DNA of 35,292 bases from a virus. The stretch's first letter is position 1; each line of letters opens with the position of its first letter. Made by a program: the position numbers and the translations under genes. The notes under the pieces were generated by a model. That model was not told the DNA's origin, did not search any database, and saw only the letters and a list, made by a program, of their open reading frames with translations. Of the stretch, positions 11,573-20,604 are shown piece after piece. Location: the IMG/VR virus record IMGVR_UViG_3300032282_003481, positions 1 to 35,292 of that record. The stretch is one strand, 5' to 3'.

Positions 11573-11619
11573 AGATTAACTTGTGGCTCGCGCTTTGCGC
11601 GGGACGTTGGAGGCTGCGC

Positions 11620-14600
11620 GTGACCACCCTCTGGCTTGACACCGAGACGTTCAGCGAGACGCCCATCACACACGGCACGCACGCCTACGCCGAGAAGGCC
11701 GAGGTGCTGCTGGTCTCCTACGCCTTCGATGACGAGCCGGCGCAGGTGCTCGACCTGACGGACGGCGCCACCCTGGGCAACGTGCAGATGCTGATCGACA
11801 GCGCCGACGAGGTGGTGCTGCACAACAGCGCCTTTGACCGCACGGTCCTGCGCCACGTCGGCGTTCACCTGCCGGTCGAGAAGGTCCGCGACACCATGGT
11901 GCAGGCCCTGTCGCACGGCCTGCCGGGCTCCCTGGGCCAGTTGTGCGACATCCTCGGCGTGCCCACCGACAAGGCCAAGGACAGGGACGGCAAGCGCCTG
12001 ATCCAACTGTTCACCAAGCCGCTGGGCAAGAACCGGAAGCTGCGCCGCGCGACGCGCGAGACGCACCCGGAGGACTGGGCCAAGTTCATCGCCTACGCCG
12101 CCAGCGACATCGAGGCCATGCGCGCGGTGCGGGCTCTCATGCCGACGTGGAACCTGTCGCCGTTCGAGAGCGCCTTGTGGACGCTCGACCAGATCATCAA
12201 CGACCGAGGGGTCGCGGTGGACCGGGAACTGGCTACGGCGGCCCTGCGCGCCGCCCAGAGGGCCGGCAAGGCCCTGGCCGAGGACATCAGCCGGGTCACG
12301 GACGGCGCCGTCGCCAACACCACCCAGCGCGACAAGACCTTGGCCTACCTGCGGGACCTGGGCCTCGTGACCGACGACCTGAAGAAAGGCACGGTCAACA
12401 AGCTGCTCGAAGGCTCCGCCATCGACCCTGAGGTGCGGAAGATTTTGGAGATCAGGCTCCAGGCGGCGGCGACCAGCCCGGCCAAGTACCGGACCCTGCT
12501 CCAGGCCACGTCGGCTGACGGGCGCCTGCGCGGCACGCTCCAGTTCTGCGGAGCGGCGCGCACCGGGCGCTGGGGCGGCCGGCTGTTCCAGCCCCAGAAC
12601 CTGCCTCGGCCGACGATGAAGCAGGCGGAGATCGACCTGGGCATCGCGGCCATGAAGGCCGACGTGGAAGACGCCCTGTTCACCAACGTCATGGAGCTTT
12701 GCACCAGCGCCGTGCGCGGCTGCATCGTGGCCCCCGAGGGTCGCAAGCTGGTGGTGGCCGACCTGTCCAACATCGAAGGGCGCATGCTGGCTTTCCTGGC
12801 CGGCGAGGAGTGGAAGCTCCAGGCGTTCCGCGACTTCGACAAGGGCATCGGCCACGACCTGTATAAAGTCGCGTATGCACGCGCGTTTGGGTTGGACCCT
12901 ACAAACGTCACCAAGGACCAGCGCCAGCTAGGCAAGGTGATGGAGTTGGCGTGTTTTGGCCATGATACCCTTGTTTTGACAGATAAAGGGCCTGTGGCTA
13001 TTAAGGACGTAACCACGGACCACAAAGTTTGGGATGGGCACGAATGGGTAAGGCACGCGGGCGTTATCGACCGAGGGCGCCGGAAGGTCATGTGCCTCGA
13101 CGGGATCGAGGTAACGCCGGAGCATCGGGTGTTGGCCGGAAGCACTTGGCTACCGGCGAAAGCGGTCGCTTCCTCCCCGAGCATCCTAGACCTGTCGTTG
13201 GCGACAGGTTTGGCGAGCTTGAAGTCGTCGGGCTGGACCTTGGTCCGAGAGGGGGGCTTTTGTACGTGCGGGTGCGGTGCTCCTGTGGAGGGGGTCCGCA
13301 CCGAGTTCACATATCCAACTTGCGAAGGGGGGCCTCTACGCGCTGCAACGCCTGTGCAAAACAGTCGGCAAACCTTTGGCGAAAAAATTGGTTCAAGTAC
13401 GAGGCGGTCTGCCCAGACCCCAATCATCGGAGGCGTCTCTGCAACCGCATATCGGCTTGCTACAACCGGTGCCACAATCCGAACGACGCCGGGTACAGAA
13501 ACTACGGCGCACGAGGCATACAGGTGTACGGACCTTGGCGCACAGACCGAGCCGCCTTCCTCGGGCATATCGTGTCGCTTGAAGGGTGGGACCAGCCAGA
13601 CCTCGAACTCGACCGCATTGACAACGAGAAAGGGTACGAGCCGGGAAACTTGCGTTTCGTCTCCAAGCGAGAGAACCGAAACAACGTTCGCAAAGTGCAA
13701 GCCCTACAACAGCGCGTCTTCGAACTGGAGGAGCGTCTACGACGTTGCTCTTGCGGGGTCGCGAAACCGGTTCACGATCCTGACTGATAGCGGCGCGCTG
13801 GTCGTCCATAACTGCGGCTACCAAGGCGGCCTGGGCGCGTTCTCCTCCATGGCCGCGATCTACGGCATGGAGCTACCGGAAAGCACCATCAACGATCTGG
13901 TGGCGGCGTGGCGCAAGGCGCACCCTCGCACCAAGGCGTTCTGGTACGACTGCGAGCGGGCGGCCAAGGACGCCATCCGCACGCCGAACAAGACCTTCGT
14001 CGCCGGTAAGCTCAAGTTCCGGTTCGGCGGCTCCTGGCTGCGCATGATGCTGCCTTCCGGCCGCTTCCTCTGCTACCCGAACGCGGGCATCAGCGAGGCC
14101 GGCAGCCTCTATTACGAGGGGGTCAACCAGTACACCCGCAAGTGGGAGCGCCTGGACACCTACGGCGGCAAGCTGTGTATCGCGGCGGGAACGCCCGTAC
14201 TCACCGATGCGGGCTGGTTGCCCATCGAGGAGGTGTCGCGGAGGCACCGGGTGTGGGATGGCGTCGAATGGGTGGCGCATGACGGTCTTGCCGACAACGG
14301 GGTTAAGGGGGTAATCAAAGCGCATGGCGTGTGGATGACACCCGACCACGAAGTTCTGACCACGAAAGGGTGGGTGCGTGCATCACAGAGCGAGCGATAT
14401 AACCGGGCTGCGTGTGGGCTACCTGACGGCGCTACGGTACAGCCGCAGCGACGGTCGGCGGTCGCTTTGGGCCGCGCGTTGCGACTGCGGGCGGGAAGTG
14501 GAGCTTTCGGCCTCGGAGTTAAAGAAGCAGGCGCAACGCGGCGTTCAGGCTTCGTGCGGTTGCCAGCGCAAAGCAACCATAGGTCTCAGAAAAACTCGAC

Positions 14601-15198
14601 ACGGCATGTCGAAACATCCGGCCTTTGCGGTTTGGCGCTCAATGCTGGACCGATGCCGCTTGCCCACGCATCAAGCATGGCACAACTATGGCGGGCGCGG
14701 GATTTCTGTATGCGCGCGTTGGGCAACCTTCGAGACTTTTTGGGAGGACATGGGGCCTACCTACGTAAGGGGGCTATCCATAGAGAGGATAGACAACAAC
14801 GGCAGCTACGAGCCGTCAAACTGCCGTTGGGCCACCCGAAAAGAGCAAACCAACAATCGCAGACCGCGCAGTCAATGGTCTTCGACCTCGTCAACTGTGG
14901 GCCGCGCCGCCGCTTCGTCGTTGCCGACGAAAGAGGGGAACCCCTGATCGTCCACAACTGCGAGAACGCGACCCAGGCCGCTGCGCGCGATGTCCTGGCC
15001 TACGGCATGCGGAAGGCCGAGGAAGCGGGCTACTTCATCGTCCTGCACGTCCACGACGAACTGATCACTGAGACCCCGGACGACCCGGCGTTTACACACG
15101 AAGGGTTGGCGGCGATCATGGCGCACGGCCCGCAGTGGTCGGTAGGACTGCCTCTGGCTGCGGCCGGGTATGAGACCGCCCGGTACAGAAAGGACTAG
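11620..15198 (+). CDS. Family A DNA polymerase precursor with two inteins
   Basis: A 1192-residue precursor; removing the two inteins (287 and 261 residues) leaves a 644-residue polymerase, normal for phage family A enzymes without a 5' nuclease. The N-terminus is a 3'-5' exonuclease (D-T-E-T with Asp7 and Glu9). The polymerase has motif A D-L-S-N-I-E-G-R (Asp381), motif [11 protein letters not shown] then C-G-Y-Q-G-G, and motif C H-V-H-D-E (Asp1146). Intein 1 interrupts motif B; intein 2 lies just before the [12 protein letters not shown] helix between motifs B and C. The enzyme cannot be active until both splice out. I chose GTG 11620 because GGAGG at 11609-11613 is six bases upstream; a TTG at 11581 in the same frame has no RBS. 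Confidence 0.92.
12952..13812 (+). mobile_element. Intein 1 (polymerase motif B) with out-of-frame nested nuclease
   Basis: 287 residues in the polymerase frame. Cys1 begins block A ([13 protein letters not shown]); block B is [12 protein letters not shown] with the T-x-x-H needed for the N-S shift. The C-terminal splicing segment starts at 13735: block [16 protein letters not shown] and block G L-V-V-H-N, with penultimate His, last Asn (13810-13812) and +1 Cys. The splicing parts total about 100 residues, mini-intein size. The roughly 190 residues between them show no endonuclease motif in this frame because the nuclease is read in another one (13146-13787). The host frame has no stop anywhere in the insert. 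Confidence 0.9.
13146..13787 (+). CDS. Nested homing-endonuclease-like protein 1 (zinc ribbon + HNH-like), out of frame in intein 1
   Basis: Read in the frame one base back (-1) from the polymerase. From TTG 13146 it is 213 residues. An N-terminal module ([21 protein letters not shown]) matches the phage zinc-ribbon that begins many HNH-like proteins. Then come [24 protein letters not shown], and the core [16 protein letters not shown] with R-E-N-R-N-N. This has the D-x-I-D...P-x-N layout of HNH nucleases, with Arg in place of the first His. The start is uncertain: TTG 13146 (GGAAG just upstream) sits where the other two nested genes start, but ATG 13044 is possible. It ends inside block F. 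Activity is inferred. Confidence 0.75.
   Translation: MATGESGRFLPEHPRPVVGDRFGELEVVGLDLGPRGGLLYVRVRCSCGGGPHRVHISNLRRGASTRCNACAKQSANLWRKNWFKYEAVCPDPNHRRRLCNRISACYNRCHNPNDAGYRNYGARGIQVYGPWRTDRAAFLGHIVSLEGWDQPDLELDRIDNEKGYEPGNLRFVSKRENRNNVRKVQALQQRVFELEERLRRCSCGVAKPVHDPD
14176..14958 (+). mobile_element. Intein 2 (polymerase, between motifs B and C) with out-of-frame nested nuclease
   Basis: 261 residues in frame. Block A is [15 protein letters not shown]; block B is [12 protein letters not shown]. The C-terminal segment begins at 14878 with [15 protein letters not shown] and ends L-I-V-H-N (Asn 14956-14958), +1 Cys. It shares the V-W-D-G-x-E-W-V-x-H stretch with intein 1 and a C-terminal D-C-G-P-R/N-C-G-P-R segment with intein 3, so the three are related. 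The centre (about 14398-14877) carries no in-frame nuclease motif; the nuclease is in the +1 frame. Confidence 0.9.
14378..14947 (+). CDS. Nested homing-endonuclease-like protein 2 (zinc ribbon + HNH-like), out of frame in intein 2
   Basis: A 189-residue protein in the +1 frame relative to the polymerase. GTG 14378 is preceded by AAAGGG (14365-14370) at seven bases, a usable ribosome binding site embedded in codons of intein block B. The N-terminal module is [18 protein letters not shown] and C-G-C-Q-R-K (zinc ribbon). The C-terminal module is [23 protein letters not shown], and [19 protein letters not shown] with E-Q-T-N-N-R-R. This is a complete member of the same family as the other two nested proteins. 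GC content falls to about 55% in part of it, below the flanking polymerase. Confidence 0.82.
15090..15097 (-). repeat. GTGTAAAC word (GTTTACAC on +), copy 6
   Basis: In the last part of the polymerase coding region, read GCG-TTT-ACA-CAC (Ala-Phe-Thr-His), a low-GC codon choice. Confidence 0.7.
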
Positions 15199-15202
15199 CC
15201 CG

Positions 15203-15502
15203 ATGACCCCCGAGGGCGAAATTCAGGCTTACCTGAAAAAGCGCGTGCTTCAGACGCACGGCGAGTTCCGCAAGGTGGCCTGGGAAGGGCGCCGAGGGGC
15301 GCCGGACACGATGATCTGGTGGCCCGGCCCCAGCTTCGCCTTCGTCGAGGTCAAGGCCGCCAACGGCAGGCTAAGCACCTTGCAGGAGCGCGAGATCGCC
15401 CGGCTGCGCAGCGCCGGGTTTCAGGTGGCGGTGGTTTACAGCAAGGAAGATGTGGACGAGGTCGTTTTGGCATTGACGCAACCATTTGGGTGCATACAGT
15501 AG
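15203..15502 (+). CDS. VRR-NUC domain nuclease
   Basis: A 99-residue single-domain nuclease of the VRR-NUC branch of the PD-(D/E)XK fold. The sequence has G-E-F-R-K-V-A-W-E-G-R-R-G-A-P-D (Asp of motif II), F-A-F-V-E-V-K-A (E-x-K) and a conserved T-L-Q-E-R-E-I-A-R-L helix. Stand-alone phage VRR-NUC proteins are thought to cut branched or flap DNA during replication. It directly follows the polymerase and sits a few genes before the SNF2-type helicase, a gene order common in phages with this replication module. I took ATG 15203, three bases after the polymerase stop region, as the start; an upstream GTG-type start would overlap the polymerase end. Confidence 0.85.
   Translation: MTPEGEIQAYLKKRVLQTHGEFRKVAWEGRRGAPDTMIWWPGPSFAFVEVKAANGRLSTLQEREIARLRSAGFQVAVVYSKEDVDEVVLALTQPFGCIQ
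15473..15500 (+). promoter_or_regulatory. Sigma70-like promoter inside the end of the VRR-NUC gene
   Basis: TTGACG at 15473-15478, a 16-base spacer and TACAGT at 15495-15500, about 40 bases before the next ATG. The -35 matches the consensus at five positions and the -10 at four. It would give independent expression of the 15540-20890 operon. Confidence 0.45.
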
Positions 15503-15539
15503 CTGCGCCTTAGAGCACATCCAAAGGGACCTGAAACCC

Positions 15540-15764
15540 ATGAACGCCTACCACACCGTAACGCCAGAAGTCCGCGACCTGATTTTACGCGCTGAGAGCG
15601 CGGTGCGGCAGTTGGCCAAGGCCAACAGCGGCTCGTTCGCCACCACCCACGCCCTGGAGCAGGCGCACGTCGCCGCCAAGGAACTGCATGCCGTGTCGGA
15701 GGCCCTGACGGCCGCCCTGACGCCGCCCAAGGTGGTGCCCCTGAAGCGGAGAACTGCCCGGTGA
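15540..15764 (+). CDS. Hypothetical 74-residue helical protein
   Basis: A small Ala-rich protein, mostly helical, with a long amphipathic stretch (A-L-E-Q-A-H-V-A-A-K-E-L-H-A-V-S-E-A-L) and a basic tail (K-R-R-T-A-R) that may contact nucleic acid. AAAGGGACCTGAAACCC precedes ATG 15540, again carrying the ACCTGA element. I prefer this to the earlier in-frame ATG at 15486, which falls within the VRR-NUC end. The stop overlaps the GTG of the next gene. No family is recognised. Confidence 0.6.
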   Translation: MNAYHTVTPEVRDLILRAESAVRQLAKANSGSFATTHALEQAHVAAKELHAVSEALTAALTPPKVVPLKRRTAR

Positions 15765-16348
15765 GCCGTCACGTACCTGACGAGCGCCTGGGCGCCATCC
15801 AAGAACACCTGATCCGCGCTGTCCGCAACCACCGGGACCAGCAATGGGTTTCGGTCAACGAGGTGGTCCTGTGCCGCGCCGAAGACCTTAGCTCCCTGCT
15901 CGACGAACTGCGTCGGCGCCGGCAGTCGAACGGCCAGAAGGGCTCTTTCAAGCTGGGGCCTACCGCCAAGCTGCTGATCAACATGAAGGTCGGTGAGACG
16001 GTCGAAATCCCGCCCGTCACGGAGGGCGCCCTGACGACGGCCCGCAAGACGGCGCGTAGGGTCATGAACAACCCCGAGGCTGTCTGGCACAGCTACGCGC
16101 AGCCGAACGGCCTCCAGCGCGTCACACGCGCCCCGGACGGGTCGCCTGCTTACCAGCGGAACCACAACCCGGCCGTCGCACAGATGGCGGCCATGCGCGT
16201 CGGCCAGACGATCACGCTGACGACGGTCAAGGGCAGGATGTACACCGGCCTGAAGGCCCTGGCGCGCCGGAAGCTGGACAAGGCCGACGCCCAGTGGGCT
16301 TGCATCAACCTCGCCAATGGCGACATCCGCTGCACGAGAACTTCCTGA
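15761..16348 (+). CDS. Protein with two related ~54-residue domains, unknown function
   Basis: A 195-residue protein starting with GTG 15761 (GTGA overlap). The first 60 residues are helical and charged. The rest consists of two similar units: L-L-I-N-M-K-V-G-E-T-V-E-I (about residue 70) and M-A-A-M-R-V-G-Q-T-I-T-L (about residue 144). Each is followed by a basic helix (T-A-R-K-T-A-R-R-V; G-L-K-A-L-A-R-R-K-L) and a W-x-x strand ending near V-T-R/R-C-T-R. An internal duplication is likely. The pattern of strand, basic helix and strand would suit DNA or RNA binding. It lies directly before the GcrA-like regulator (TGATG overlap). Confidence 0.6.
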   Translation: MSRHVPDERLGAIQEHLIRAVRNHRDQQWVSVNEVVLCRAEDLSSLLDELRRRRQSNGQKGSFKLGPTAKLLINMKVGETVEIPPVTEGALTTARKTARRVMNNPEAVWHSYAQPNGLQRVTRAPDGSPAYQRNHNPAVAQMAAMRVGQTITLTTVKGRMYTGLKALARRKLDKADAQWACINLANGDIRCTRTS

Positions 16349-16818
16349 TGTCTGACAAACGACGTTGGGTGGAGACGGTGCGCTGGACGACTGATGAGGA
16401 GTTGATGGCGCGGTGGATGTGGCTGAACAATCATACGGGCACCGAGATCGGCAAGGCGATTGGGCGCACCCGAAGCTCGGTCCTTGGCTTCCTAAATCGC
16501 AACAACCTGAACACGGCAGCGAGGGCGCTGCACAAAAAGCAACAGGCCGAGAAGCAGCCCGAACGGGTTCGGCTGCCGGTGGCCGAAGGGGCGCCTACCA
16601 TGGGAGAGGTGTTGTCGCTGCCGCCGCCTGATCGCGGCCCTTACACAGGCCCTCGGGTCTGGACCACGCGCCTGCTGTTCGAGTGCCAGTTCCCGGTGTC
16701 CGGCGACGGCGCCGACACGTTCTCCTGCTGCGAGCCGATCAAGACGGCCTTCGGCTACTGCCCGGCGCATCGCAAGCGGATGTACTCGCCGTCCACCTAC
16801 GAAACCAAAGGGTTCTAA
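16348..16818 (+). CDS. GcrA-like cell-cycle regulator
   Basis: A 156-residue protein resembling GcrA, the alphaproteobacterial factor that binds sigma70 and GANTC sites methylated by CcrM. The N-terminus W-T-T-D-E-E-L-M-A-R-W then G-T-E-I-G-K-A-I-G-R-T-R-S-S-V-L-G-F-L-N-R matches the GcrA helix-turn-helix, which usually reads T-R-N-A-V-I-G-K-V-H-R. The C-terminus C-Q-F-P-V...F-S-C-C-E and Y-C-P-A-H-R-K-R-M-Y matches the sigma-binding C-terminal domain (C-x-W-P, F-C-G, Y-C-x-x-H). A phage version may redirect host RNA polymerase or mimic cell-cycle control. I chose ATG 16348, overlapping the preceding stop; the track of open frame upstream is inside that gene. Confidence 0.75.
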   Translation: MSDKRRWVETVRWTTDEELMARWMWLNNHTGTEIGKAIGRTRSSVLGFLNRNNLNTAARALHKKQQAEKQPERVRLPVAEGAPTMGEVLSLPPPDRGPYTGPRVWTTRLLFECQFPVSGDGADTFSCCEPIKTAFGYCPAHRKRMYSPSTYETKGF

Positions 16819-16821
16819 CCT

Positions 16822-17484
16822 GTGGCCTCTGTCCTAGACCTGTTCTGCTGCGCCGGTGGCGCCGGCGAGGGCTACTATCGCGCCGGCTTCGATGTCGTCG
16901 GCGTCGATATGAACCCGCAGCCTCGCTACCCGCACACGTTCATCCAGGCCGACGTGCTGACCCTGGACCCGGCCTGGATGGCGACCTTCGACCTGATCCA
17001 CGCCAGCCCGCCCTGCCAGGGCTACAGCGCCATGCGCCACGCGCCTGGGGTCAAGGGCGCCCCGCGCCTGATTGCCGAGGTGCGAGGCATGCTCCAGGCG
17101 GTCGGCAAGCCCTACATAATCGAGAACGTCGAGGAAGCTCGCGGCGCGATGATCAGCCCGATCCTGCTCTGCGGCACCATGTTCGACCTCGGCGCTCAGG
17201 GCCACGAACTGCGCCGACACCGGCTGTTTGAGAGCAACATGCCTTTCATCCCACCGATGTGCGAGCACACCGACAAGCCGGTCATCGGCGTGTACGGCGG
17301 CCACGCGCGCTGCCGGTCGGCCAAGCACGGCGGCCGAGGCACGCGCGACAGGTGGGAGGGCGGCCACAAGGCCGCCGCGTCGGAGGCCATGGGCATCGAC
17401 TGGATGACGCTAGGCGAACTGTCGGAGGCCATCCCGCCCGCCTACACCAAGTTCCTCGGTGAGCAGGCGCGGAGGTTTATGTGA
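16822..17484 (+). CDS. C5 cytosine DNA methyltransferase (short form)
   Basis: A 220-residue DNA (cytosine-5) methyltransferase. Motif I is D-L-F-C-C-A-G-G-A-G-E-G-Y (AdoMet binding), motif IV A-S-P-P-C-Q-G-Y-S with catalytic Cys65, motif VI I-I-E-N-V-E-E-A and motif VIII R-R-H-R-L-F-E-S. It is shorter than bacterial enzymes (about 320 or more) and the space after motif VIII is small, so its target-recognition region is minimal. Near the end V-Y-G-G-H-A-R and A-M-G-I-D-W-M-T form motifs IX-X. It may protect phage DNA from host restriction or act on host regulation, and works alongside the Mom-like protein nearby. It starts with GTG and overlaps the helicase GTG by four bases. Confidence 0.85.
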   Translation: MASVLDLFCCAGGAGEGYYRAGFDVVGVDMNPQPRYPHTFIQADVLTLDPAWMATFDLIHASPPCQGYSAMRHAPGVKGAPRLIAEVRGMLQAVGKPYIIENVEEARGAMISPILLCGTMFDLGAQGHELRRHRLFESNMPFIPPMCEHTDKPVIGVYGGHARCRSAKHGGRGTRDRWEGGHKAAASEAMGIDWMTLGELSEAIPPAYTKFLGEQARRFM

Positions 17485-19760
17485 CCCGGACCTTCGTGCC
17501 GCACGCCTACCAGCTTGACGCCATCGAGCACATCCACAAGCAGCCTCGCTGCGCCCTGTGGATGCCCATGGGCGGCGGAAAGACGATCTCGACGCTGACG
17601 GCCCTGGAGCACCTGTCCTGCGTCGAGGACGTGTATCCGGTGCTGGTGCTGGCCCCCCTGCGCGTGGCTAAGACGACGTGGCCGGACGAGGTGGCGAAGT
17701 GGGACCACACCAAGCACCTTCGGATCGTGCCGGTGACGGGCAATGTCAAACAGCGTTTGACATCCCTGATGACGCCCGCCGACGTTTACACGACCAACTA
17801 CGAGCAGTTGCCCTGGCTGGTCGAGCACTACGGCGACCGCTGGCCGTTCAAGACGGTCATTGCTGACGAACAGACGCGCCTGAAGTCCTACCGCACCCGG
17901 CAGGGTTCCAAGCGCGCCAAGGCCCTGGCTCAGGTCGCCCACACCAAGGTGAACCGCTTCATCGGCCTGACCGGGACGCCGTCGCCCAACGGGCTGGCCG
18001 ACCTGTGGGGTCAGACGTGGTTCGTGGACCGGGGCGAGCGCCTGGGGCGCACCTACAGCGCCTTCGAGGCCCGCTGGTTTAAGAAAGGCTGGGACGGCTT
18101 CAGCGTTGAACCGCTGCCCATCGCTCAGAAGGAGATCGAGGGGCGCCTGCGCGACGTGTGCCTGACCGTGACCGGCCTCCCGGTGGACGAGCCCATCGTC
18201 AACAACATCTACATCGACCTGCCGTCCTCGGCGCGCACCCTCTACAACGAGATGGAGCGCGAGATGTTCATGGAGATCGAGGAACACGGCATTGAGGCGC
18301 TTAACGCCGCCGCCAAGACCATGAAGCTGCTACAGGTTGCGAACGGCGCCGCCTACATCGACGACCAGAAAAACTGGAAGGAAGTCCACCATGAGAAAAT
18401 TGAAGCCCTCGGAAGCATCGTGGAGGAGGCCGCCGGGGCGCCCGTCTTGGTGGCCTACCATTTCCAAAGTGATCACGCCCGCCTCCGCGCAGCTTTTCCT
18501 AAAGCAAGGACGTTGGACGCTGACCCTGCAACGATCCATCAGTGGAACGCCGGGCGGATACCGATCCTACTCGCTCACCCTGCGTGCCTGCACCCAGAAA
18601 CAGAAGTGTTGACTGAAAGTAGAGGTTGGGTGAGGATCATCGACGTGCGGCGAGACGAGCGCGTCTTCGACGGCGTCGAGTTCGTGGCCCACGGCGGATG
18701 TTCTTTCTCTGGGGTGCGCCCCGTCATTGAACGGTTCGGGATCACGCTGACCCCGAACCACAAGCTGTTGATCGGGCGCCGGTGGGTGGAGGCGAAGGAT
18801 GTACGAGATCATCCAGACACTGCCGAAAAGGCGCGCTACTCGTACAGCGGCGCTGACCCTTATCTTGGCGCGATGTTGCCGATGCGGCGTCGAGCGGGAG
18901 ATGCTGTTGCAGAACGCCGTGCGCGCCAACAAGGAGCGGCGCGAGTTCTGCCCGGCGTGCCTGGAGGACAGCTTTCACCGGATGACCGGAACGCGGTTTT
19001 GGTCGATCTGGAAGGGGATGCTCTACCGGGCGACGGACCCGAAAAGCCCGGACTGGGAGCACTATGGGGCCGTCGGTCGGGGTGTGGACGAAGCGTGGCT
19101 GTCGTTCAAGAATTTCTACAACGACATGTTCGAGGGCTACAGCGACGATCTGACCCTGGATCGGGCGGACAACTCGAAGGGCTACAGCAAGGCCAATTGC
19201 CGGTGGGTGTCGAACCTTCAACAACAGGCGAACAAAAACAACAATCGGGTGATCCGCTACCGGGACCGCGACATACATTTGGCGGAGTTTTGTCGCGTAG
19301 CCGGAGTGTCGAGGGGGGCGATAGTGCCTCGTTTAAATGCCGGGATGAGCGCCGAGGAGGCGCTGAAAGACTATGCCAACTCCCGGTACAAGAAGAACCG
19401 CAGGCCTCGGTTTCCCCCGTCTACGACATAGTGGACTGCGGGCCTCGGCATCGGTTTCTGGTGCGGAACGCAAAGGGCGACGTGTTTGTGTCCCACAACT
19501 CCGCTGGGCACGGGCTAGACCTCCAGTACGGCGGCAACATCCTGGCGTTTTTCAGCCTGAACTGGTCGCTGGAAAACTACATGCAGATCATCGAGCGGAT
19601 CGGCCCCATGCGCCAGAAGCAGGCCGGCTTCGACCGGCCTGTCTTCGTCCACCACATCATGGCCGCCAAGACGGTGGACGACATGGTGCTGGAGCGGCTG
19701 GCCTCGAAGCGCACCGTGCAGGAAATCCTGCTCGACGCCATGAAGCGGAGGAAACAGTGA
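17481..19760 (+). CDS. SNF2-type superfamily 2 DNA helicase precursor with one intein
   Basis: A 759-residue precursor that would give a 454-residue helicase after removal of a 305-residue intein, the normal size for phage SNF2-type helicases. Motif I is M-P-M-G-G-G-K-T (Lys34), motif II I-A-D-E-Q-T-R-L-K (Asp129, Glu130), motif III G-L-T-G-T-P-S-P-N-G-L-A. Motif V is L-L-A-H-P-A then S-A-G-H-G-L-D-L-Q, split exactly by the intein. Motif VI is Q-I-I-E-R-I-G-P-M-R-Q-K-Q-A-G. It probably remodels or unwinds DNA during replication, next to the polymerase and VRR-NUC nuclease. The start is GTG 17481, overlapping the methyltransferase stop; translation is likely coupled. Confidence 0.9.
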   Translation: MTRTFVPHAYQLDAIEHIHKQPRCALWMPMGGGKTISTLTALEHLSCVEDVYPVLVLAPLRVAKTTWPDEVAKWDHTKHLRIVPVTGNVKQRLTSLMTPADVYTTNYEQLPWLVEHYGDRWPFKTVIADEQTRLKSYRTRQGSKRAKALAQVAHTKVNRFIGLTGTPSPNGLADLWGQTWFVDRGERLGRTYSAFEARWFKKGWDGFSVEPLPIAQKEIEGRLRDVCLTVTGLPVDEPIVNNIYIDLPSSARTLYNEMEREMFMEIEEHGIEALNAAAKTMKLLQVANGAAYIDDQKNWKEVHHEKIEALGSIVEEAAGAPVLVAYHFQSDHARLRAAFPKARTLDADPATIHQWNAGRIPILLAHPACLHPETEVLTESRGWVRIIDVRRDERVFDGVEFVAHGGCSFSGVRPVIERFGITLTPNHKLLIGRRWVEAKDVRDHPDTAEKARYSYSGADPYLGAMLPMRRRAGDAVAERRARQQGAARVLPGVPGGQLSPDDRNAVLVDLEGDALPGDGPEKPGLGALWGRRSGCGRSVAVVQEFLQRHVRGLQRRSDPGSGGQLEGLQQGQLPVGVEPSTTGEQKQQSGDPLPGPRHTFGGVLSRSRSVEGGDSASFKCRDERRGGAERLCQLPVQEEPQASVSPVYDIVDCGPRHRFLVRNAKGDVFVSHNSAGHGLDLQYGGNILAFFSLNWSLENYMQIIERIGPMRQKQAGFDRPVFVHHIMAAKTVDDMVLERLASKRTVQEILLDAMKRRKQ
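17784..17791 (-). repeat. GTGTAAAC word (GTTTACAC on +), copy 7
   Basis: Within CGTTTACACG in the helicase gene, read GTT-TAC-ACG (Val-Tyr-Thr). Confidence 0.7.
18788..18792 (+). promoter_or_regulatory. Internal Shine-Dalgarno GGAGG for nested nuclease 3
   Basis: GGAGG lies six bases before the out-of-frame ATG 18799, inside intein codons for Val-Glu-Ala. It is the clearest evidence that a nested nuclease is translated on its own. Confidence 0.7.
18799..19431 (+). CDS. Nested homing-endonuclease-like protein 3 (zinc ribbon + HNH-like + HTH), out of frame in intein 3
   Basis: A 210-residue protein in the +1 frame relative to the helicase. It begins with ATG after a consensus GGAGG. The N-terminal part has C-C-R-C-G and C-P-A-C (zinc ribbon). 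Then F-W-S-I-W-K-G-M-L-Y-R-A, W-E-H-Y-G-A, V-D-E-A-W-L-S-F-K-N-F-Y and T-L-D-R-A-D-N-S-K-G-Y-S-K-A-N-C-R-W-V-S align with nested proteins 1 and 2. A C-terminal addition, L-A-E-F-C-R-V-A-G-V-S-R-G-A-I-V-P-R-L-N-A-G then A-E-E-A-L, is a small helix-turn-helix module of the kind attached to HNH homing enzymes. The gene ends 13 bases into the C-terminal splicing segment. Confidence 0.82.
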   Translation: MYEIIQTLPKRRATRTAALTLILARCCRCGVEREMLLQNAVRANKERREFCPACLEDSFHRMTGTRFWSIWKGMLYRATDPKSPDWEHYGAVGRGVDEAWLSFKNFYNDMFEGYSDDLTLDRADNSKGYSKANCRWVSNLQQQANKNNNRVIRYRDRDIHLAEFCRVAGVSRGAIVPRLNAGMSAEEALKDYANSRYKKNRRPRFPPSTT

Positions 19761-19990
19761 CCGACATGGTGAACCAGCCCCCGCACTACACCGATGGCGG
19801 GATCGAGACGATTGATTATCTGCAAGCCAAGCTGACGGCGGAGGAGTTTGCGGGGTTCTGTAAGGGCAACGCGCTGAAGTACCTGTCCCGCGCCGGCAAG
19901 AAAGGCGGCGGGGCGGAGGACATCGCCAAGGCCGCTTGGTACGCGAACCGTCTGCTCACCGCCATGGAACGGCGAAAGGAGGGGGCGTGA
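19757..19990 (+). CDS. DUF3310 (SaV-like / T7 gp1.1-like) protein
   Basis: A 77-residue member of the DUF3310 family, once annotated as nucleotide kinase-like. The signature is clear: V-N-Q-P-P-H-Y-T-D-G-G-I-E-T-I-D-Y, then F-C-K-G-N-A-L-K-Y-L-S-R-A-G-K-K-G and D-I-A-K-A-A-W-Y-A-N-R-L. The H-Y-x-x-G-G-I-E and K-Y-x-x-R motifs are nearly universal in it. The biochemical role is unsettled. GTG 19757 overlaps the helicase stop (GTGA); ATG 19766 is an alternative start. It is coupled to the Mom-like gene by another GTGA. Confidence 0.88.
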   Translation: MTDMVNQPPHYTDGGIETIDYLQAKLTAEEFAGFCKGNALKYLSRAGKKGGGAEDIAKAAWYANRLLTAMERRKEGA

Positions 19991-20604
19991 CCGACGACCT
20001 TTGTGTGCGCGCTATCAAAAGCGCCGAAGCCGCGCAGGTAGTGATCGAGCATCATTATCTTCACAGACGACCCCCTACGTCATACGCTTTTGGACTGTTC
20101 AAAGGCGACACGATCAAAGGCGTCCTAACGTTTGGCGTTCCTGCCAGCCGGCACCTTATGCTGTCTGCCAGTCCCGAAAACCCAAACGATGTTATCGAGC
20201 TTAACCGTCTTTGGATAAGCGATGACATGCCCAAAAACACAGCGTCTGCTTTTGTGGCTAAAGTCCTTAAGATGCTTCCAGAACGTATAGTAGTTTCCTA
20301 CGCAGACACCTCTGTAGGTCACGCCGGGTATGTGTATCGAGCCAGCAACTTTAATTATTCTGGCTGGACTGACATGGAAAGAAAGACACCGAGGTACGAC
20401 TATGTCGTCCCCGGAAAACACTCTCGCGACGCTTTTAGGAGTGGTAACTTTACGCGAGTTCGACGTAAGCCTAAAGTTAAATACTGGATCGTAAGCGGAA
20501 CCGACAAACGCGAGCGTCGCCGCCTAGATAAAAGGTGTGGCTGGCCTAAGCTGTGTTGGAAAGCTCATCCTCCCCCCGTCGCAGCACAAGGCGATAACCA
20601 ATGA
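19987..20604 (+). CDS. Mom-like DNA adenine-modification protein (GNAT-related)
   Basis: A 205-residue protein resembling phage Mu Mom and its relatives, which convert adenine in phage DNA to a carbamoylmethyl derivative and so block restriction. Matching features are I-E-H-H-Y-L-H-R-R-P, F-G-L-F-K-G-D-T-I-K-G-V-L, then I-E-L-N-R-L-W-I-S-D-D-M-P-K-N, and V-S-Y-A-D-T-S-V-G-H-A-G-Y-V-Y-R-A-S-N-F with Y-S-G-W. The acceptor fold is related to GNAT acyltransferases. Sampled GC is about 48%, against about 65-70% nearby, so it was probably acquired recently. In Mu, com and Dam methylation regulate mom; no com-like gene is evident here. GTG 19987 overlaps the DUF3310 stop. Confidence 0.78.
   Translation: MTDDLCVRAIKSAEAAQVVIEHHYLHRRPPTSYAFGLFKGDTIKGVLTFGVPASRHLMLSASPENPNDVIELNRLWISDDMPKNTASAFVAKVLKMLPERIVVSYADTSVGHAGYVYRASNFNYSGWTDMERKTPRYDYVVPGKHSRDAFRSGNFTRVRRKPKVKYWIVSGTDKRERRRLDKRCGWPKLCWKAHPPPVAAQGDNQ

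Follow-up and report, generated by a model that had tools for sequence, protein, structure and literature searches.

Phage inteins with an HNH nuclease gene nested in another reading frame

Three inserts in the polymerase and helicase genes of a phage

We analyzed the DNA of virus record IMGVR_UViG_3300032282_003481, positions 1 to 35,292; this whole stretch of 35,292 bases is referred to below as the window. A family A DNA polymerase gene carries two inserts and an SNF2-type helicase gene a third; each insert overlaps a further gene read in a different frame. The relevant features are as follows.

11581..15198, plus strand: family A DNA polymerase gene with inteins 1 and 2 (DNA_pol_A, 8.5e-13; phrog_17, 2.8e-104)
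12952-13812, plus strand: predicted intein 1, 287 aa, at polymerase motif-B site ELA↓CGY; C1, blocks A/B, V-Y-D, H-N and +1 Cys (phrog_93, 3.4e-9)
13146..13787, plus strand: nested HNH gene 1, frame -1 (f+2), start uncertain (phrog_374, 3.3e-29)
14176-14958, plus strand: predicted intein 2, 261 aa, at polymerase site GGKL↓CEN; splicing blocks and +1 Cys, with AlphaFold2 and Foldseek support
14378..14947, plus strand: nested HNH gene 2, frame +1, GTG start, SD-like pairing of -7.4 kcal/mol (phrog_374, 1.5e-57)
17481..19760, plus strand: SNF2-type helicase gene with intein 3 (SNF2-rel_dom, 1.2e-14; phrog_62, 1.7e-141)
18585-19499, plus strand: predicted intein 3, 305 aa, at helicase site HPA↓SAGHG, +1 Ser; ends LAHPA↓CLHPET...SHN↓SAGHG
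18799..19431, plus strand: nested HNH gene 3, frame +1, ATG start with GGAGG 6 nt upstream (phrog_3377, 1.6e-39)

The polymerase and helicase ORFs run uninterrupted across the inserts, with no separate ORFs for N and C halves of the kind that mark a fractured gene; for the polymerase, an alternative downstream start at 11620 is possible. All three inserts sit at conserved motifs of the two enzymes. In the host frame, all three inserts have C1, block A, block B with T-P-x-H, block F with V-(Y/F)-D, and a terminal H-N followed by C or S, the C-terminal junctions of inteins 1, 2 and 3 being VVHN↓C, IVHN↓C and VSHN↓S. The original prediction placed these splicing blocks in the host frame, and they proved correct at the base level. 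Residues C1, T6, V8, L9, T10, T55, P56 and H58 are invariant across the three, and inteins 2 and 3 are 28–29% identical to intein 1, mostly in the end blocks. The host frame had also been said to hold no endonuclease motif. This was borne out in the window, where searches of Pfam, NCBIfam and PHROGs gave no HNH or LAGLIDADG match of the sort that would indicate a bifunctional intein. The intein models of NCBIfam and Pfam scored below their cut-offs on the host frame, with TIGR01445 (intein_Nterm) reaching only 0.023 on intein 3.

Structure prediction was applied to intein 2, using AlphaFold2 and an alignment of its relatives. Confidence was high at both ends (pLDDT about 97 for residues 1–80 and about 96 for 230–260) and below 50 for most of residues 90–225. 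The best Foldseek matches of this model were the Mtu RecA mini-intein (2.3e-4) and the DnaX mini-intein (7.7e-4), and the host-frame family profile matches the solved inteins Neq (Nanoarchaeum) pol (2.7e-6) and Mtu RecA (5e-6). The two halves of intein 2 are thus predicted to form a Hint fold interrupted by a disordered central stretch. We infer that the inserts are inteins in the host frame, for which protein splicing is predicted.

The nested genes read in frame -1 within intein 1 and in frame +1 within inteins 2 and 3, start near the block-B Trp codon and stop inside the C-terminal block, all as originally described. Their products are homologous to one another. PHROGs were needed to identify them, Pfam and NCBIfam being insufficient: Pfam left nested proteins 1 and 2 unmatched and gave only weak, unrelated matches for nested protein 3, and NCBIfam gave one weak unrelated match. 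For nested gene 1, the candidate starts are TTG at 13146 and ATG at 13044; the frame is open back to 13005, and the ORF is listed at up to 13029-13787. All three ORFs are uninterrupted and keep an intact zinc-ribbon and D-R..N..Y...N core, and the Cys4 of the zinc-ribbon is conserved at 98–100% in the family. The profile of the nested nucleases aligns with I-HmuI (E 0.009). At the position of the I-HmuI His, the canonical catalytic residue of HNH enzymes, 99% of the family has Arg, so catalysis would be non-canonical. A model of nested protein 3 (pLDDT 87) gave the HNH enzyme PacI as its top VIA-align match (Z 6.2 over 73 residues) and a Z of only 2.0 with I-HmuI; Foldseek found no match below E 0.001 for the nuclease model. 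Because these structural matches are limited, we regard the fold assignment as modest, with sequence profiles as its main basis.

Several further features were also seen. Contig IMGVR_UViG_3300034198_010819 (L004, L020, L100) carries all three inteins in a form identical to that of the window and is a second record of the layout. The VRR-NUC gene that follows the polymerase (15170-15502) belongs to phrog_93, whose profile also holds intein blocks at positions 3-72 and 254-309; VRR-NUC genes of other phages therefore probably contain inteins of this family. The helicase gene is flanked by a DNA methyltransferase gene and a Mom-like DNA modification gene (16822-17484, 19936-20604), which suggests that the phage DNA is modified.

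Recurrence of the layout and frame of the nuclease

Protein searches of phage records identified the same inteins in APSE phages, Caulobacter phage RW, Shewanella phage SFCi1, Sodalis phage SO-1, Salmonella phage SE2, Pseudomonas phage MR14, Vibrio phage 97.13, and Gardnerella and Streptococcus phages. The nuclease is out of frame in all of these named relatives except Streptococcus phage Javan422, in which it has been deleted. Relatives from IMG/VR were taken from two scans ranked by full-length match (80 of 207 and 80 of 251 retained), a ranking of the main locus sample that favors open host frames. Among the matches listed, 183 inteins had both ends within one open frame and made up the tally; the N-block profile matches every one of them (183/183). 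Of the 183, 180 carry the HNH gene out of frame (95 f+1 and 85 f+2, among the matches listed and with the Javan422 remnant counted) and the other 3 lack it. A search of phage genomes for intein blocks enclosing an HNH gene in another frame had been proposed at the outset, and it turned up more than 100 further phages with this layout. Homologues with the same nuclease in frame would have spoken against the prediction; none was found in the tally (0/180 among the matches listed).

Because the main sample had been ranked by full-length matches, a second, independent sample of 80 loci was drawn by nuclease profile alone. Eleven of these loci fell in inteins, and in all 11 the nuclease was out of frame and the host frame open. 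The remaining 69 lay outside inteins, none nested in a longer reading frame, which makes it plausible that HNH genes, formerly free-standing, invaded mini-inteins. A scan of bacterial genomes gave only four relatives: one decayed, one with the nuclease core deleted, and two with the nuclease out of frame. The decayed copy, in an Arsenophonus endosymbiont chromosome (L180, 2501-3475), is damaged in both the nuclease and the intein end. With the layout present in well over a hundred additional phages, the out-of-frame-nuclease intein is genuine and widespread, a kind of mobile intein that has largely gone unnoticed.

Selection, expression and alternative explanations

We asked how strongly the host frame is held open across the nested gene. 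In the window alone, the chance that it would stay open under recoding is 0.29, 0.12 and 0.03 for nested regions 1–3; in a GC-rich genome such values are only suggestive, and a family-wide test was therefore used. The nuclease protein of 142 non-redundant copies was recoded with synonymous codons, and stops were counted. Across these copies the host frame contains 0 stops, compared with 731 (own codon usage) to 906 (host-gene usage) expected. The unused third frame contains 1621, compared with 1213–1517 expected. This test is decisive, and it supports the claim of the original prediction that selection keeps the host frame open through the nested gene. The proposed comparison of dN/dS in both frames was also carried out, on 19 pairs of close relatives because deep pairs were saturated. 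Values were 0.18 and 0.11 for the N and C splicing halves and 0.11 (95% interval 0.09–0.14) for the nuclease frame. For the host frame overlapping the nuclease, two estimators gave 0.65 (0.50–0.84) and 0.96 (0.59–1.72). Hence, the splicing halves and the nuclease frame are under purifying selection, and both products look functional. The overlapped host-frame peptide, with dN/dS of 0.65–0.96 and zero stops, appears to be near-neutral filler that need only stay open.

How the nuclease is made bears on two further readings. The best SD-like site is at or below -6 kcal/mol for the nested frame in 46% of loci, for the host frame in 23%, and for the third frame in 4%. Within the window, nested gene 3 has GGAGG six bases before its ATG, nested gene 2 a moderate site, and nested gene 1 no good one. 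This start-site evidence suggests that the nuclease may be produced apart from splicing. Ribosomal frameshifting out of the intein N half, without internal initiation, would instead make it as a minority N-intein–HNH fusion. Such a route would suit intein 1, whose nested frame extends without a stop back to offset 53, far inside block A/B, and which has no convincing SD; by the SD measure, a strong site is missing in more than half of the family. But the enrichment of SD-like sites in the nested over the third frame and the GGAGG of gene 3 speak against it, and in f+1 members stops usually precede the nuclease in the nested frame, so that any shift would be confined to a very short stretch. 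We therefore consider frameshifting improbable. It is also possible, if on balance doubtful, that the nested genes of the window are decaying passengers, with splicing kept and at least one of the three nucleases already inactive. Alignment with its relatives shows that nested gene 2 is missing their C-terminal helix-turn-helix; this, together with the lack of a good SD for gene 1, means that some copies in the window may be inactive. Nested gene 3 deviates at two columns conserved in 97–99% of the family, and derivatives with nuclease loss are known at other loci. Yet the deviations of gene 3 are shared by its L005 homologue, the three ORFs are unbroken and retain the zinc-ribbon and core motif, and purifying selection is strong across the nuclease family.

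Two other explanations were weighed. Phage group I introns commonly hold HNH genes, and the GenBank record of Sodalis phage SO-1 labels gp39 a 'type I self-splicing intron'; the inserts might likewise be group I introns, removed at the RNA level together with their HNH gene. However, Rfam yielded no match to an intron RNA core in 12500-20000, even at E up to 1, and the intron reading was rejected on this basis. An RNA intron has no need of a host frame that is open in 142/142 copies, nor of ends that encode conserved intein blocks under purifying selection, making this reading very unlikely. Lower still do we place the idea that ordinary in-frame nuclease inteins were broken by sequencing or assembly frameshifts, a possibility raised with the original prediction. 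Metagenome contigs carry a general risk of such errors, and nothing beyond that was found in its favor. Against it, the layout is present in the isolates APSE-1, SO-1, SE2, Caulobacter RW and Shewanella SFCi1, each of the 142 non-redundant loci would need a matched pair of shifts, and the in-frame count is zero. As independently sequenced isolates and contigs share the layout, an artefact of this kind is excluded for practical purposes.

Movement, known relatives and meaning of the composite element

In the APSE-like contig L027, intein 1 is an exact 858-nt insert, and the corresponding site of APSE-1 is empty. Polymerase insertion points in other loci (L009, L011-L015 and others) shift by a few residues inside one motif (ELA↓CGY, KV↓CEL, KA↓CEL; GGKL↓CEN, GGRLAEN↓CTQ), a pattern that might reflect drift or repeated invasion of the target site. 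On the nuclease tree, and likewise on the intein tree, the frame label changes just two times, so the data can be explained by a small number of founding events. Four relatives (Javan422, L079, L179 and L181) have lost the nuclease with the host frame kept open; in L079 the nuclease core is missing, and the zinc-ribbon start and helix-turn-helix are still readable. Eight others, in phage polymerases, are split (L053 136-1157; L142 1248-2266; L122 1305-2266; L162; L078; L082; L047; L072 2537-3502). In these, the N half stops near the nuclease start, the nuclease lies in +1, and the C half begins from its own ATG, preceded in several cases by an SD-like sequence. The N half, nuclease and C half occupy three frames, except in L072, where the two halves share the same phase. 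Two changes on the nuclease tree are required to account for the split forms, which probably derive from nested ones.

Known systems share parts of this design. Classical bifunctional inteins (LAGLIDADG or in-frame HNH) carry the endonuclease as a domain of their own protein chain. The splicing halves described here likewise sit on either side of an endonuclease-coding segment, placed at the equivalent position of the Hint fold, but the nuclease is never in frame with them (0/180 among the matches listed). In fractured genes, reportedly the subject of work by Dassa et al. in 2009, a homing endonuclease gene lies between the halves of a split intein. There, as here, the endonuclease is unfused to the splicing domain, and our eight split relatives share the split arrangement. 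The window and 180 relatives differ in having a continuous intein with an overlapping out-of-frame zinc-ribbon HNH gene, whereas the nuclease family in the fractured genes was reportedly Vsr-like. GenBank already holds inteins of this family, located in the corresponding polymerase and with the HNH annotated inside that gene in another frame, in Hamiltonella phage APSE-1 (P45/P46) and Sodalis phage SO-1 (gp38/gp39). These records give overlapping CDSs only, with that of SO-1 labelled as a self-splicing intron, and no architecture, selection or family analysis of either was found in searchable papers. By sequence, the SO-1 'type I self-splicing intron' (L007, 3078-3836) is an intein with an out-of-frame HNH gene.

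Literature searches yielded no paper that describes out-of-frame nucleases in continuous inteins. There may be overlap with a 2025 preprint on "non-canonical" actinobacteriophage inteins, whose title suggests related unusual arrangements, possibly out-of-frame endonucleases. A published cousin is the ShiLan domain (Arsenault, Gosselin and Gogarten 2025, PMC11855218), an insert in a phage gene that leaves the host frame open and contains an out-of-frame zinc-finger HNH gene. It has a patchy, homing-like distribution and is without intein splicing blocks or known splicing (PMC11855218). The out-of-frame HNH gene and open host frame are thus common to both, whereas the conserved splicing halves present here are missing in ShiLan. 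The statement that no established class has such a design stands insofar as no describing paper was found, but not insofar as the APSE-1 and SO-1 records already display the layout and a cousin has been published. With these GenBank layouts, the ShiLan domain and fractured genes as precedents, and possible overlap with the 2025 preprint, the out-of-frame-nuclease intein is not categorically new, though it is widespread.

The explanation we favor, with a probability of roughly 0.85 for the whole, is a composite mobile element: an intein with a nested homing nuclease, entailing internal initiation, homing, and derivatives arising by loss or splitting. An N (about 80 aa) and a C (about 35 aa) splicing half would be joined by disordered filler, which would be the out-of-frame reading of the nested zinc-ribbon HNH homing endonuclease gene. 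The polymerase or helicase would be translated straight through, and the halves would fold into one Hint domain, excise and rejoin the exteins, leaving the host enzyme unharmed. The nuclease would be made from the same mRNA via internal initiation near the end of block B. It would cut intein-free alleles of co-infecting phages, and because of this cut the whole intein would be copied across by repair. Selection would act on the splicing halves and the nuclease frame, and on the host frame merely against stops. Loss of the nuclease by frame-preserving deletion would yield a mini-intein, and stops plus a new start would yield a split intein flanking the nuclease gene; both patterns are seen among the relatives, and the direction of change would be as given here.

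We see about an even chance that these elements are a large, distinct class of phage inteins, with the endonuclease always out of frame, that feeds mini-inteins by deletion and split inteins by fracture and supplies a missing intermediate for split-intein origin. With the composite element, the textbook picture of a mobile intein shifts from a fused domain to an overlapping gene, in which one DNA stretch is under two selections, for sequence in one frame and for mere openness in the other. Many phage 'mini-inteins' of 260–305 residues with a nonsense-like middle would be explained, the middle being a nuclease read out of frame; as a rule of annotation, inteins with a disordered middle call for inspection of the other frames. 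There is also a testable path from continuous to split intein, with the start and stop codons already there. Out-of-frame-nuclease inteins may also be a source of split inteins.
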